A stretch of 64,000 nucleotides of DNA, from assembly GCF_014640615.1 (NCBI RefSeq), contig NZ_BMHH01000012.1, forward strand, positions 1-64,000. The letters are read 5' to 3'. The position numbers and the translations under genes are program-made. The notes beneath the pieces are model-generated. The model saw only the letters and a list, made by a program, of their open reading frames with translations, was not told the origin of the DNA and did no database searches. Positions within the stretch are counted from its first letter, which is position 1. Every line of letters starts with the position of its first letter. Positions 1,289 to 39,439 of the stretch are shown here, piece by piece. The DNA comes from Paramesorhizobium endophyticum. GTDB lineage: Bacteria; Pseudomonadota; Alphaproteobacteria; Rhizobiales; Rhizobiaceae.

Positions 1289-1318
1289 CTTCGAAAATTA
1301 TTCTCTGCTGTGCTATAT
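1289..1318 (+). promoter_or_regulatory. candidate promoter of the plus-strand anti-SD sRNA
   Basis: CTTCGAA (1289-1295) and GCTATAT (1312-1318) are separated by 16 bases and end about 9 bases before the first sRNA hairpin. The layout resembles alphaproteobacterial heat-shock-type (RpoH) promoters but the match is loose. It is inferred from spacing and position. Confidence 0.35.
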
Positions 1319-1324
1319 CCGAAT

Positions 1325-1440
1325 CATTGAGTTCAACATTGGCTCCTCCCTGAACTCAATACCTGAACGTGGCGCCTCCTCCCTGCCATGTTCAAAGATA
1401 TGGCCCGCTGCATCCTCCTCCCGCAGCGGGCCTTTTTATT
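1325..1440 (+). ncRNA. three-hairpin sRNA with CCUCCUCCC loops (alpha-r14/NfeR1 or 'cuckoo' type)
   Basis: Three consecutive hairpins each expose a pyrimidine CCTCCTCCC/CTCCTCCC motif in the loop: stems 1327-1335/1351-1359, 1364-1373/1385-1394 and 1402-1411/1423-1432. The third is a GC-rich 10-bp stem followed by TTTTT (1433-1437), so it doubles as the intrinsic terminator and fixes the orientation. The loop motif is complementary to the Shine-Dalgarno GGAGG. From memory, this architecture matches the rhizobial alpha-r14 family (NfeR1 of Sinorhizobium meliloti, repeated anti-SD loops) and the related CcsR 'cuckoo' RNAs of Rhodobacter. A trans-acting translational repressor of many mRNAs is the expected role. 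The 5' end is approximate. Confidence 0.75.
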
Positions 1441-1487
1441 TGTCCGCGCGGCAGGGGAATAATGGGGAGGGGATGAGATGGCATAGG

Positions 1488-1612
1488 CACAAAAAACAAC
1501 ACCCGCCGCGGGAGGAGGTGCGGCGGGTGTGTTAGGATAAGGCTGGCTTGGGAGGAGGAGGCGCCAGCCTTAAATCGCGCGGGTTTGGGAGGAGGTAAAC
1601 CCTTGCGAAGCT
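1488..1612 (-). ncRNA. second three-hairpin anti-SD sRNA, convergent with the first
   Basis: Read on the minus strand, three hairpins again carry CCTCCTCCC-type loops: stems 1597-1602/1581-1586 (weak, 6 bp), 1563-1571/1539-1547, and the strong 11-bp stem 1520-1530/1499-1509, followed by TTTTTT (complement of 1491-1496). The terminal hairpin therefore serves as terminator on this strand. It faces the plus-strand sRNA at 1325-1440, the two 3' ends being about 50 bases apart. Stem sequences differ between the two RNAs while the loops are the same, so this is a diverged pair rather than a recent duplication. The 5' end is approximate and no convincing promoter was identified. Confidence 0.72.
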
Positions 1613-1653
1613 CTATGTTGTGAACACAATAGAGCGGTTAACGCGAAATGAGA

Positions 1654-1698
1654 ATGCACAATAGTGCATGGCAGCAATGTATCTAGTGCATTGCAGCA
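1654..1698. promoter_or_regulatory. paired direct repeat and palindrome upstream of the minus-strand sRNA
   Basis: AGTGCATGGCAGCA (1663-1676) recurs as AGTGCATTGCAGCA (1685-1698) with one mismatch. The start-to-start distance is 22 bp, about two helical turns. The first copy overlaps a perfect palindrome, ATGCACAATAGTGCAT (1654-1669). The block lies between the permease stop codon and the minus-strand sRNA, where an upstream operator or activator site for the sRNA would be placed. The protein that binds is unknown. Confidence 0.4.
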
Positions 1699-1701
1699 TC
1701 C

Positions 1702-3282
1702 TCAAATCAGCGAACTGTCCTTCGGTTCCAAGTCCGGAATGATGCTCTGGATATGGTTGATCTGTTCAACGCACCGCTCCTTTGGCAGGCGGCATGCAAT
1801 CGCCCATGCGTAGATGACCAGAGAGAAGACCGTGATCCCCACGATATCCCATCCGAAGGGAATATCGCCCTTTCCGCCGAACGTGCCGAAATAGGAGAAC
1901 AGGCCAATTCCCACGAGATAGGGGATGAGCCAGCTCGCTTCCCGGAAGTCGAGCGGCCCTGGGTCGAGCCAGCGTCCATGAATGACGAACAGGACAAGGC
2001 CGAGGAGCAGCACCAGGCCCAGCTGCCAGAGCGTATCCCATCCGCTCCAGTAGATGATCAGCGTCGAGACGATGAAGGCTATCGTGCCGATGAGCCTCAC
2101 CGCGGGCAGGCGCAAGGGGCGGCGCTGGTCGGGGAGAAGCTGCCGCAGCGCCACCACGGCAATCGGCCCGACGATGAAGGAGAGGACGATGGAAGCGCCG
2201 TTGAGCCGCACGATCTCATCGAACGAGAAAATCATGAGAATTGCCGCGCCCAGCACGAAATTGAGGATAAGCGCGGGCAGCGGCACGTCGCGCTTCGAAA
2301 GCCCGGCGAGGAATTTCGGAAAAAATCCGTTGCGGGCGAGCGCATAGGCGAGGCGCGCATTGGAGCCTGCCGCCACCAGGCCGCCGCCGAACGGGCCGAT
2401 GACCGCGCCGACATTGAGCAGTGCGACGAGCCAGAGCAGGCCGAGCGAAGTGGCAATGGCGTCGATCGGCCCGAGCCGTGCGTTGATCATCAAACCGTTC
2501 CAGCCATTGGTCAGCATGGAGCCCGGCATCGCGCCAACGAAGGCAAGTTGCAATCCGGCATAGACCAGGAAGCAGATGATGACCGACAGGATCAGCGCCA
2601 GCGGAATCATCCGTCCGGGGTTCTTGACCTCGCCGGCCATGTCGATGGCATGGCGGAAGCCGATATAGGAAAAGATGATACCGCCCGTGGAGACCGCGGC
2701 GAAAATGCCGTGCAGCCCGTAGGGTGAGAAGCCGCCCGCCTGCTGGCTGAAATTCGCCGTGTCGAAGCGCGATATCAACAGCGTGGCGATGATGACGAGG
2801 GGGATGGCGATCTTTACCCAGGTCAGGGTGGAGTTGATCCTGGCGAAAAACTGTACCCCGATGGCATTGATGACTGTAAAGAGAGCGAGGAGCGCTATGG
2901 CAAAGGCCATGGTCCGCCAGTCGGCGAGATCGCCGCTCATCCAGTTCACATGGGGCGCCAGATATTTCAGCATCGCCGCCACTTCCACCGAAACCGTGGA
3001 ATTGTAGCCGATCCAGGCGCTCCAGCCCATCGCCATCGCCACCACATTGCCATGGCTGAACTGGGGAACGCGGGCGATGCCGCCCGGCACCGGCAGCATG
3101 GCGGAAATCTCCGCGAATGTGAGGGCGATCAGCAGGATCGCTATGCCACCCAAGGCCCATGCGACGATCGAGGCGGGGCCCGCCTGCTGGCTTGCAAGAA
3201 GGGGCGCGAACAGCCAGCCCGACCCCAGGACGCCGCTCACGGCGACGAATGTCAAGCCGATCAGCCCGATTTCGCGTTTCAT
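1702..3282 (-). CDS. APC-family amino acid permease
   Basis: A polytopic inner-membrane secondary transporter of the amino acid-polyamine-organocation superfamily, expected to import amino acids or related amines. The protein opens with GLIGLTFVAVSGVLGSGWLF, which carries the TM1 glycine-rich unwound segment of APC carriers, followed by the AEISAMLPVPGG segment of TM2 and about 12 hydrophobic helices. Length is about 526 residues from the ATG at 3282. The frame remains open to 3444; a GTG at 3300 has a better placed GGA-type ribosome site, so the N-terminus may be 6 residues longer, but the ATG lies directly before TM1. It is a single gene: an AT-rich spacer divides it from the divergent YdcF gene, and sRNA elements lie beyond its 3' end. 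The substrate cannot be read from sequence. Confidence 0.85.
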   Translation of the reverse strand: MKREIGLIGLTFVAVSGVLGSGWLFAPLLASQQAGPASIVAWALGGIAILLIALTFAEISAMLPVPGGIARVPQFSHGNVVAMAMGWSAWIGYNSTVSVEVAAMLKYLAPHVNWMSGDLADWRTMAFAIALLALFTVINAIGVQFFARINSTLTWVKIAIPLVIIATLLISRFDTANFSQQAGGFSPYGLHGIFAAVSTGGIIFSYIGFRHAIDMAGEVKNPGRMIPLALILSVIICFLVYAGLQLAFVGAMPGSMLTNGWNGLMINARLGPIDAIATSLGLLWLVALLNVGAVIGPFGGGLVAAGSNARLAYALARNGFFPKFLAGLSKRDVPLPALILNFVLGAAILMIFSFDEIVRLNGASIVLSFIVGPIAVVALRQLLPDQRRPLRLPAVRLIGTIAFIVSTLIIYWSGWDTLWQLGLVLLLGLVLFVIHGRWLDPGPLDFREASWLIPYLVGIGLFSYFGTFGGKGDIPFGWDIVGITVFSLVIYAWAIACRLPKERCVEQINHIQSIIPDLEPKDSSLI

Positions 3283-3599
3283 ATGGCGAGTTTTTTTCAC
3301 GAGTGTTCCAGACGATTTGTTTTGTTGCCCATATATCAGTATCCGGAAGTCAAGATTCCCGAGTTGCGCTGTTTGTGCAACAAAACTTGTGGTGTATCCC
3401 CTTTTTGTGATTAAGATTTTTCCTTTCGTGAATATGAATTCCATCTCTTTTTTGACATAATTGCATTGTGACGTGTTTTATCTATCGCTTATAGGAAGTA
3501 TATATTTTATATAGTTTGTACGCTTTAACTTAGACTTTATAATATTGCACGCGGACTCTTTGAAATGAACATCAGGATATCCACCTAGGGTCGACATTG
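3283..3599. other. AT-rich divergent intergenic region
   Basis: This spacer between the divergent permease and YdcF genes is very AT-rich from about 3400 to 3560 and must hold both promoters. No supported gene, repeat or distinct palindrome was found in it. Confidence 0.5.
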
Positions 3600-4625
3600 A
3601 TGGAATATAATCATTCTAGAAAGCGACCGTGGAAGCCCATGTTCCTGCGCAGCATTCAGCGGATTTTACTGTCCGGTTCCCTGGCCATTGCTGGGGGCGC
3701 CGCGAGCCTTGACGAGGGAAGGACATCTGCGGATGCGCCCGCCGCCGCACAGGCGCTGAGCACACGCGGCTGGCTGGAGGGCTTGACGAGCCTCGATTAC
3801 AGCACCGGCGATTTCCGGCGGGGCATAGAAGACGGCACGGTTTCGACCCTTTATGTGCAATTGGAGAAAGAGCGGCAATCGTTGCAGGCCCTCCAGACCC
3901 TGGTCGAGGACAAGGAAGGGGTGAAGGCTGCGTCCGATAATCTGGCCAGGACCATGTCCGTCATTCGCGCCTTTTACGCCGATTACATCGGGCAGCCCTG
4001 GCTGGGTGACGAGAGCGCCTACCGGTCGCCCGATGGGATCGTGATCCTGGGCGCCAACCAGCCGAGGCTGGACCAAAGGCTCGCCCATGCCTTGCCGATC
4101 ATCCAGCGCTACAAAGATGTTCCGGTCATTCTGTCCGGCGGCGGGCGGACCATCGCCCTGGAAGCGCAGACCATGCATGATTATCTCGCCCGGCACGGCG
4201 TTGCCGAAGACCGGCTGATCATGGAGCCGGATTCGCTCGATACGATAGGAAACGCGGTCTTCAGCGGGCTCGCCCTGATGAAAAAGGGGATACGCGGCGG
4301 CAAGATGCTGCTCGTCACCTCCGATTTTCATGCGCCCCGGGCGCTTTTCCTGTTCCGATCCGTGCTGGGGCCGGGGTTCCGCGTAGCTGTTTCCTCCACG
4401 GCCTCGCCGGGCACGGATGTCGCGGCGCGCATCGAGAGCGAGTTGCAGCAGGAGGCGCTTGCCATCCGGGATGTGCTTCATTGGCCTGCCATCGCCGGGC
4501 AGCCGCCAAGACCGGTGGAAGGCATCTGCGGGGTGTTCTATCAACTCCTGCTGCGGCATAAGCTCTATGAATCGCGCTGGGATCTCGCGCGCCGTTATAG
4601 CGGCCAGTGCAAGCTCCCGGGCTGA
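3600..4625 (+). CDS. YdcF/SanA-family (DUF218) envelope protein
   Basis: About 341 residues. The C-terminal two thirds is a DUF218 (YdcF/ElyC/SanA) domain, shown by DGIVILGANQPRLDQRLAHA, VPVILSGGG, MHDYLARHGV, SLDTIGNAV and LLVTSDFHAPRALFLF. Family members are membrane-anchored or periplasmic and are linked to peptidoglycan and envelope maintenance; the biochemical activity is not firmly known. A hydrophobic N-terminal segment (about residues 15-36) could be a signal or anchor. The start is the ATG at 3600, about 9 bases after AGGG; a TTG directly before it is also open. The gene converges on marC with only 4 bp between the stop codons, so the two share no room for separate terminators. Confidence 0.82.
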   Translation: MEYNHSRKRPWKPMFLRSIQRILLSGSLAIAGGAASLDEGRTSADAPAAAQALSTRGWLEGLTSLDYSTGDFRRGIEDGTVSTLYVQLEKERQSLQALQTLVEDKEGVKAASDNLARTMSVIRAFYADYIGQPWLGDESAYRSPDGIVILGANQPRLDQRLAHALPIIQRYKDVPVILSGGGRTIALEAQTMHDYLARHGVAEDRLIMEPDSLDTIGNAVFSGLALMKKGIRGGKMLLVTSDFHAPRALFLFRSVLGPGFRVAVSSTASPGTDVAARIESELQQEALAIRDVLHWPAIAGQPPRPVEGICGVFYQLLLRHKLYESRWDLARRYSGQCKLPG

Positions 4626-4629
4626 ATCG

Positions 4630-5286
4630 TCACCGTGAATGAAGCAGATCGGAAACGCCGACCCAGATCATCTGAATTCCAATGCAGAGGATGATGAAGG
4701 CCGCAAGGCGCAGCAGGACTTCGGTTCCATTCTCGCCGAGAACGCGCTTGAGGACATCGGCATAGGCATAGGCCAGATAGACCGTGCCGCAGATGGCCAG
4801 CAGGCCGAGGCATGTGGCGATGTCCTGAATGGCAGCGCTGTCGAAATCATTCAAAATATTGGGCCGATCGGTGCCAAGGGCAATGGCGACGGCAATAGAG
4901 CCGGGACCGAAAGTCATCGGCATGGTGATGGGATAGAAGGCCTTGGCGAGCGCGCCCTGGTCGGTCTTGCTTCTCTCGACTTCGCTGTCCGTTGAATCGT
5001 CTCCGCTATCGAGGAGCCGCCAGCCCATGATCGAGATCACGATGCCTCCGGCGATGCGTACGGATGGGAGGCTGAGGCCGAAGAATCCCAGGATATGGGA
5101 GCCCGCGAGAATCGATACGCCCAGCAGCGCGAAACCGCTCACCGCAACCCGCCAGGCAATTTGATGGCGTACCTGGGAGGAGCATCGGGCCGTCATGTCA
5201 AGAAAGATCAGCGCCGTCCCGAGCGGGTTGACGATCGGGAACAGCGTTGCATAGGTCAGGAAGAAAGCGTGAATTGCGTCGTTCAA
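4630..5286 (-). CDS. marC: MarC-family integral membrane protein
   Basis: A 218-residue protein with six predicted membrane helices and the MarC/UPF0056 hallmarks: FPIVNPLGTALIFLDMT near the N-terminus and RIAGGIVISIMGWRLLD in the middle, with a polar loop (about residues 100-120) between the halves. MarC was once linked to multiple antibiotic resistance, but that role was withdrawn; the related NAAT group moves neutral amino acids, and the function here is unknown. The start codon is a TTG at 5286, supported by GGAG eight bases upstream and the usual N-terminal residues of the family. It is convergent with the YdcF gene and divergent from the esterase gene. Confidence 0.88.
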   Translation of the reverse strand: MNDAIHAFFLTYATLFPIVNPLGTALIFLDMTARCSSQVRHQIAWRVAVSGFALLGVSILAGSHILGFFGLSLPSVRIAGGIVISIMGWRLLDSGDDSTDSEVERSKTDQGALAKAFYPITMPMTFGPGSIAVAIALGTDRPNILNDFDSAAIQDIATCLGLLAICGTVYLAYAYADVLKRVLGENGTEVLLRLAAFIILCIGIQMIWVGVSDLLHSR

Positions 5287-14719: not shown

Positions 14720-14822
14720 CAGCAGTCGACGGGTCGCTCCTCCCACTCTTCACGTCGACTGTTCCCCTCTGGAGGTCATAACCTTCAGCATTGGCCGGGC
14801 TGAAAAGTCCGGCCTTTTTTAT
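14720..14822 (+). ncRNA. third putative sRNA with a CUCCUCCC loop
   Basis: A 9-bp perfect stem, CAGTCGACG/CGTCGACTG (14723-14731 and 14753-14761), presents CTCCTCCC (14737-14744) in its loop. A short self-complementary CCTCTGGAGG follows, then a terminator hairpin (14793-14800/14807-14814) with a run of eight T. Unlike the pair near 1.4 kb, only one anti-SD loop is present and the terminator loop is GAAAA. It lies in the 646-bp spacer between two minus-strand genes, so it must be an independent unit. It is probably related in function to the first two but not the same family member. Confidence 0.65.
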
Positions 14823-39056: not shown

Positions 39057-39439
39057 ACCTTCTCGCCCGACCTTGCCGACCTGACGATCTATGTCATCTC
39101 AGTGTGCCAGGGCGAGGAAATCCCGCGCAAGGGCGGCCCCGGCATCACCCGCTCCGACCTGCTGATCATCAACAAGAAAGATCTAAAGCATGTCTCCCAA
39201 AAGTGGGAACCGGTTTTGGGGTAAAGACATGCGCAAAAACAAAAACTTAAAGCGTGTTCCATGAATGCGATAAAATGCAACACGCTTTAGCCCCCTTCGT
39301 CGGCGCCGACCTCGACGTGATGGAGCGAGACGCAACCCGGATGCGCGCCGGCCAGCCCTTCGTCTTCACCGACATGAAGCGCGGCGACGGGGTGGACAGG
39401 ATCGTCTCGTTTCTTGAGCTTGAGGGCGGGTTGGCCTGA
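39057..39439 (+). pseudogene. ureG: ureG fragment, 5' truncated and interrupted by a repeat
   Basis: [20 protein letters not shown], then [15 protein letters not shown] and IINKKDL (39057-39185), followed after a 104-bp interruption by APFVGADLDVMERDATRMRA and GQPFVFTDMKRGDGVDRIV (39290-39439), reproduce the C-terminal half of the urease accessory GTPase UreG. The P-loop half is absent; similarity starts abruptly at 39057, 7 bp from the 5'-truncated permease remnant on the other strand. The interruption is a pair of palindromic repeats placed exactly between the NKxD-type motif and APFVGA. No other urease gene is in the window. Confidence 0.85.
39183..39290. repeat. two palindromic repeats inserted in the ureG remnant
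   Basis: The unit begins with CTAAAG and ends with CTTTAG, as inverted ends. It contains two palindromes: one around CATGTCTCCCAAAAGTGGGA with arms near 39187 and 39226, and one with arms AAAGCGTGTT (39249-39258) and AACACGCTTT (39279-39288). The second is of the same family as the repeat at 50943-50986. Both are dispersed Hyphomicrobiales intergenic units. Confidence 0.8.

Follow-up and report, generated by a model that had tools for sequence, protein, structure and literature searches.

Why genomes keep many similar ar14 RNAs with anti-Shine-Dalgarno (aSD) loops is a question touched by a short intergenic region of Paramesorhizobium endophyticum, where two predicted RNAs of this kind, here called A and B, face each other tail to tail. 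The region lies in a window of 64,000 nucleotides (positions 1 to 64,000 of contig NZ_BMHH01000012.1), with a solute-binding-protein gene to the left of A (72-1124, + strand) and an amino-acid permease gene to the right of B (- strand, running from an assumed start at 3282 to 1702). Published accounts place ar14 RNAs in the Rhizobiaceae, Brucellaceae, and Phyllobacteriaceae and give them three hairpins, identical CCUCCUCCC loops, highly variable stems, and several copies per genome (PMC10746234, PMC7143759, PMC3927594). What might two such copies do, and does their arrangement matter? We consider it likely that A and B are trans-acting ar14 sRNAs with one anti-Shine-Dalgarno output and two separate inputs, in a layout that was inherited and with a short gap that is incidental.

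Identity and folds of the two units

Judged by their sequence and predicted fold, A and B are new members of the known sRNA family ar14 (NfeR1/cuckoo). A search with Rfam covariance models matched unit A (1322..1438, + strand) to ar14 (RF02344) at 69.5 bits and unit B (1494..1613, - strand) at 103.3 bits. Both scores are above the gathering cut-off of 58.8 and both matches span the full length of the model, so the assignment to alpha-r14/NfeR1 made in a preliminary description of this DNA was right. CcsR, which it had also named as having such loops, was not supported: against CcsR1 (RF02791), B reached 32.4 bits and A 31.6 bits, well under the gathering cut-off of 65.3. Besides the score, both units have the three hairpins with the aSD loop motif CCUCCUCCC and the variable yet paired stems of ar14/NfeR1. 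The genome (4.93 Mb) gave four reported ar14 matches, namely A, B, one on contig C1, and one on contig C2.

Folded alone, A has a minimum free energy (MFE) of -48.3 kcal/mol and B of -54.3 kcal/mol, with three terminal hairpins apiece. The fold of A has a z-score of -8.05 and that of B one of -7.10, and for either unit none of 200 shuffles folded as well. The six hairpins in less than 300 bp, three per strand, that had been read from the letters were thereby recovered. On the + strand, A consists of hairpin 1 (1326..1360), hairpin 2 (1364..1394, loop CCUCCUCCC), and hairpin 3 (1402..1437, loop AUCCUCCUCCC), the last followed by a T tract and predicted to act as an intrinsic terminator. On the - strand, B consists of hairpin 1 (1575..1608, loop ACCUCCUCCC), hairpin 2 (1538..1572, loop with CCUCCUCCUCCC), and hairpin 3 (1495..1533, loop ACCUCCUCCC), which leads into a T-rich tail, again as in an intrinsic terminator. 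Strands and terminators had thus been assigned correctly. A consensus scan of positions 1000-2200 reported neither terminator, because its loop limit (3-8) excludes them.

Every one of the six loops contains CUCCUCCC in the fold. The loops had been called the same, which is true of this core and not of the whole loop: loop 1 of A (GGCUCCUCCCU) lacks the leading C of CCUCCUCCC and has a 2-bp GG/CC closure inside it. This loop holds CUCCUCCC only, with 6/8 of its bases unpaired in the MFE structure. The stems had been said to differ completely. They are variable, but this wording was too strong, since the terminator stems of A and B share the sequence CCCGC[T/C]GC, in which the variable base pair is T-A or C-G, a compensatory change, and stem 2 of both units has a loop-proximal UGGC/GCCA in common. 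Counted over both strands of the 64-kb window, CTCCTCCC occurs 11 times where 2.57 occurrences are expected, and six of the 11 are the loops of A and B.

Conservation of A and B in the genus

Our genus sample comprises six genomes, G000 to G005, where G000 is the genome of this window. Sequence in common with named records links G001 to Phyllobacterium leguminum ORS 1419, G002 to Mesorhizobium sp. RMAD-H1, G003 to Paramesorhizobium deserti A-3-E, and G004 to Phyllobacterium phragmitis 1N-3. Orthologues of A and of B, in convergent order, were found in all six. Across the six genomes, mean column identity reaches 93% in the A orthologues and 95% in those of B, and the pairwise nucleotide identity of rpoB in the same set ranges from 89.8 to 93.6%. 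The motif CUCCUCCC is present in 34 of the 36 orthologous loops, the exceptions being loop 3 of A in G005 and loop 1 of B in G004. This bears out the earlier proposal that the loops are under selection, with the qualification that they are nearly but not perfectly fixed.

We then compared the arms of the stems among 29 of 30 genus copies, i.e., the 12 of the pair and 18 others drawn from 24 further genus matches (the six left out were all below the cut-off); one copy, L054, was dropped for having only two loop anchors. With their own arms, hairpins 1, 2, and 3 reached -16.3, -18.0, and -27.4 kcal/mol, and with arms swapped between copies they reached -10.0, -11.5, and -16.2 kcal/mol. Joining a 5' arm with the 3' arm of another copy costs on average 6.3, 6.5, and 11.2 kcal/mol, and the own-pair median was reached by 10.3, 10.0, and 3.0% of the swaps, respectively; as related copies are not independent, these values are to be read as a comparison and not as a probability. 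Hence, the stems are kept by pairing and the loops by sequence, and the opposite pattern of stems without covariation and drifting loops was not found. A MAFFT alignment of all 30 copies misregistered hairpins 1 and 2 and was excluded from covariation.

Upstream regions and the two inputs

The upstream region of B contains a 13/15 match to the VtlR-binding motif CAATGCAGCCATGCA given in PMC12595884 (1665..1679, - strand), which covers -66 to -52 relative to where the Rfam match of B begins. It is the only hit to this motif with two mismatches or fewer on both strands of the 64-kb window. The B orthologues of all six genomes have a match with 2-3 mismatches (12-13/15) that starts at -66 to -68. 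The same region holds a TGCA-N6-ACAT sequence (1677..1690, - strand) that is one base off the LsrB box of NfeR1, described as TGCA-N6-GCAT (PMC10746234); the distances are similar, the published box occupying -72 to -57 relative to the start site and that of B -77 to -64 relative to the start of its Rfam match. A looser Agrobacterium form, GCAT-N3-TG-N3-T, is matched by B with one mismatch; this form is frequent by chance, with 85 hits on one strand of the window when up to one mismatch is allowed. An element of 34-42 nt upstream of B (1660..1702, - strand) recurs in five loci of other genera, in four of them before a DUF1127-like ORF followed by ar14, and in the fifth (L152) directly before ar14; the 13/15 VtlR match lies inside this element. 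The ORFs of these four loci were identified visually by their MN[L/I]IRNYRNWRRYRE start, and Pfam was applied only to the two DUF1127 proteins of the own genome. A clear CTATAT -10 element is absent from B, which has a weak AAGATAG-like sequence instead. Unit B and its VtlR-type box are separated by a stretch with a palindrome-like TGCACTATTGTGCA (window 1655-1668, - strand), which is partly conserved in the B orthologues.

Upstream of A, a predicted promoter, CTTCGAA-N17-CTATAT (1289..1318, + strand), resembles the published RpoD signature of NfeR1 homologues, CTTAGAC-N17-CTATAT (PMC10746234). Sequences related to it, together with a more distal ATAACCATNAT-like one, precede A in all six genus genomes. 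In the 600 nt upstream of the six A orthologues, the best matches to the VtlR motif have 4-6 mismatches and lie at unshared places; the looser Agrobacterium form has a single exact match there, at -187 in G001. Copies A and B appear to differ in promoter: in A the core is RpoD-like and no LsrB-type box is recognisable, and in B such a box is combined with a weak core. A generic sigma-70 consensus scan of 1000-2200 reported no promoter for either unit. The likely promoters (about 1289-1318 for A and 1655-1690 for B) fall outside the stretch that had been described before (1325..1612).

Many ar14 copies of the genus follow a DUF1127-like gene. Such an ORF lies upstream of 16 of the 18 other genus copies examined. 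A motif search of the 600 nt upstream of the A and B orthologues showed no DUF1127-like ORF in any of the six genomes for either unit, which speaks against membership of the pair in the DUF1127 + cuckoo (CIN1) group. Seven of these DUF1127-linked copies match the VtlR motif with 0-2 mismatches at best, and the other nine with 4. The latter nine are no better than the best A match of G002 and G005; hence, the box evidence is not clean, and the mismatch count alone cannot separate A from all of the 16. The nine have one shared variant, however, and the A matches do not. The two other ar14 copies of the own genome, on contigs C1 (57540-57661) and C2 (285980-286099), lie behind 48-aa DUF1127 genes, and their VtlR-type boxes deviate from the Brucella motif at 1 and 2 positions.

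These upstream elements have counterparts in described regulatory circuits. In Brucella, AbcR2 and three DUF1127 genes are the reported targets of activation by VtlR (PMC12595884). In A. tumefaciens the reported target is AbcR1, and VtlR and LsrB are called orthologues whose circuits are said to have diverged (PMC7486931). For S. meliloti, one paper reports no LsrB control of the AbcR RNAs (PMC7486931). NfeR1 is described as having three redundant aSD motifs, with LsrB indispensable for its expression (PMC10746234, PMC7143759). Among the closest known systems, ar14/NfeR1 of Sinorhizobium meliloti (SmelC397) shares with A and B the three hairpins, the aSD loops, the variable stems, the intrinsic terminator, and the multiple copies; here, in contrast, two copies face each other and one of them, A, has no recognisable LsrB-type box. 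The ccaF1-CcsR1-4 locus of Rhodobacter sphaeroides (DUF1127 + cuckoo/CIN1; PMC10253847) also carries aSD-loop sRNAs and is like the 16 of the 18 other genus copies, but A and B have no upstream DUF1127-like ORF and are far under the CcsR1 (RF02791) cut-off. AbcR1/AbcR2 (ar15) are, like A and B, paired related sRNAs with aSD-type motifs, of which VtlR controls one of two in Agrobacterium and Brucella (PMC7486931); they belong, however, to another family and are laid out in tandem.

We propose that A and B would each be made as a transcript of about 115-120 nt, running from its own promoter to its own intrinsic terminator. By analogy with the family, the three loops would expose CUCCUCCC and pair with the Shine-Dalgarno regions of several mRNAs, the translation of which would be blocked, as has been reported for NfeR1. 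B is the NfeR1-like copy and would be made on activation by a VtlR/LsrB regulator: it should respond to LsrB/VtlR because a VtlR/LsrB-type box lies upstream and no DUF1127 gene stands between this box and the RNA. A has the same loops behind another conserved promoter, one without a recognisable box, and would be made under another signal. Given the box at B and the different promoter at A, the pair most likely represents the same output with two inputs. As for individual targets, the best ntrB-like hit was below the cut-off of its family. The ar14 copies of the genus fall into three classes: some follow DUF1127-like genes, one (B) stands alone behind a VtlR/LsrB-type box, and one (A) has the same loops with another promoter. 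The pair raises the question of whether such copies persist because their inputs differ and not because their targets do.

One might instead regard A as a decaying redundant copy and B as the only one that acts, which we find unlikely. A has the lower score (69.5 vs 103.3 bits), its loop 1 is one C short and partly closed in the fold, and its loop 3 has drifted in G005. In S. meliloti, only one of six NfeR1 loci was reliably detected and the five others were not (PMC7143759), so that A or B could be silent. Yet A keeps a mean column identity of 93% in six species, its promoter sequence is conserved, and the stems of its hairpins 2 and 3 are intact in all six, which argues against decay.

Convergent order and the gap between the units

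The two Rfam-defined 3' ends are separated by a spacer of 55 bp (1439..1493). The tail-to-tail pair at about 50 bp pointed out in the preliminary description is thus real, and the synteny comparison upheld its convergent order in all six genus genomes; its tight apposition as a working unit was not upheld, as neither the length nor the sequence of the spacer is conserved. The gap between the 3' ends of A and B measures 55 bp in G000, 58 bp in G001, 276 bp in G002, 1959 bp in G003, 171 bp in G004, and 1934 bp in G005. In G003 and G005 it contains a divergent gene pair that encodes a regulator of the AraC_N type and a short-chain dehydrogenase (SDR), at 2372-4155 of locus L057 (G003) and 2505-4283 of locus L059 (G005). 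These two gaps are 76% identical over 1787 bp (blastn), and blastn among the six genus spacers gave no good match apart from this cassette.

To place the gap states among the species we used rpoB. Its nucleotide tree, ((G002,G000),G003,(G001,(G004,G005))), has supports of 0.97-1.0, and the protein tree agrees with it, two of its nodes being weak (0.25 and 0.54). On the nucleotide tree the two cassette genomes are on separate branches, and so are G000 and G001, which have the shortest gaps. Of the cassette, the gap of G002 shows no more than a match of 18-21 nt (E 0.04), too weak for use. The cassette may be ancestral and later deleted; whichever gap state came first, tight apposition is not the feature that was conserved. 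Close AraC/SDR pairs occur elsewhere in G000, G001, and G004, with AraC identities to G003 of 74, 75, and 53%, and in G002 the only such pair is more distant (AraC 46-47%, SDR 35%); within the genus, the position of the araC/SDR cassette varies.

With a gap that ranges from 55 to 1959 bp and holds genes in two genomes, neither the close apposition nor sponging by read-through is conserved. Sponging had been suggested for antisense RNA made by read-through of either unit. It needs transcription past a strong terminator and, in G003 and G005, across about 1.9 kb and two genes, and we rejected it as a conserved mechanism on the gap lengths; for G000 taken by itself it has little probability. From the comparison of the six loci, the genus seems to have inherited the tail-to-tail order, and the shortness of the gap in G000 looks incidental.

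Outside the genus, the arrangement of ar14 neighbours is another one. In the 55 genomes from outside the genus among 61 searched, those at most 3 kb apart form at least 26 tandem pairs, at least one divergent pair, and no convergent pair among the matches listed. In 35 further genomes from other genera of the family (129 matches; our own selection), we counted 28 tandem, no divergent, and no convergent pairs within 3 kb. Both samples together give at least 54 tandem, at least one divergent, and no convergent pairs among the matches listed, the tandem count being slightly inflated by overlapping matches (e.g., on G061 C2 and G028 C12). Within the genus there are six convergent and four tandem pairs. 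Hence, among the matches listed in the genomes searched, the convergent order is seen only in this genus. The synteny of the permease gene was uninformative, the best match outside the genus being 42% identical in a search of 61 family genomes (including G000 and G001).

Motif searches extended this comparison. The pattern CTCCTCCCN72-102GGGAGGAG occurs in 35 of 394 family genomes, two of which are G000 and G001. Among the other 33 we examined 21: no ar14 match was found in 20 loci, and the remaining one (G250, L153, 2 kb) has a single ar14 at 58.6 bits, just below the cut-off, without a partner. An A-type terminator was found in 20 stretches of named genomes, of which 16 were scanned at the gathering cut-off and 12 contained ar14 (13 units). 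None of these 16 stretches had a convergent ar14 pair, several matches lying near the end of a stretch with their surroundings visible on one side only. The sequence ATAACC, part of the A promoter, is absent from the 120 nt upstream of all 13 units with the A-type terminator. In the literature searched for NfeR1/alpha-r14, cuckoo/CcsR, and convergent sRNAs, largely open-access texts without supplements, we recognised no convergent ar14 pair.

Might the convergent layout itself be functional, with A and B controlling each other by antisense read-through or polymerase collision? We hold this to be quite improbable, even though the order is convergent in all six genus genomes and in none of the at least 54 tandem and at least one divergent pairs listed outside the genus, and the gap is merely 55-58 bp in G000 and G001. 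These two genomes do not form a sister pair in the rpoB nucleotide tree, the gap reaches 1959 bp and encloses two genes in two species, and both A and B end in a stable, GC-rich terminator stem followed by a T-rich tail. Moreover, common descent alone predicts a shared order in six related species. A variant in which the order is under selection, with the transcription of A and B coupled through collision, supercoiling, or occasional antisense read-through into a switch between two inputs with the same output, has equally little probability in our view. That the six intergenic inverted repeats in less than 300 bp are repetitive GC-rich sequences without RNA function (REP-like or bidirectional terminators) is extremely improbable, given only four reported ar14 matches in 4.93 Mb, and the family scores, the promoter conservation, and the pairing kept despite varied arms speak against it.

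Elsewhere in the window, an ar15-family (AbcR-type) match lies at 14724-14820 (+ strand, 49.4 bits) and contains a CTCCTCCC site at 14737-14744; by eye, the surrounding ORFs include no obvious LysR-type regulator. A further Rfam match, to the Brucella sRNA CI27 (BASRCI27), lies at 39176-39371 (+ strand), with 72.1 bits for a cut-off of 59.8. Four more CTCCTCCC sites are located outside Rfam matches, at window positions 5175, 50300, 57362, and 60359.
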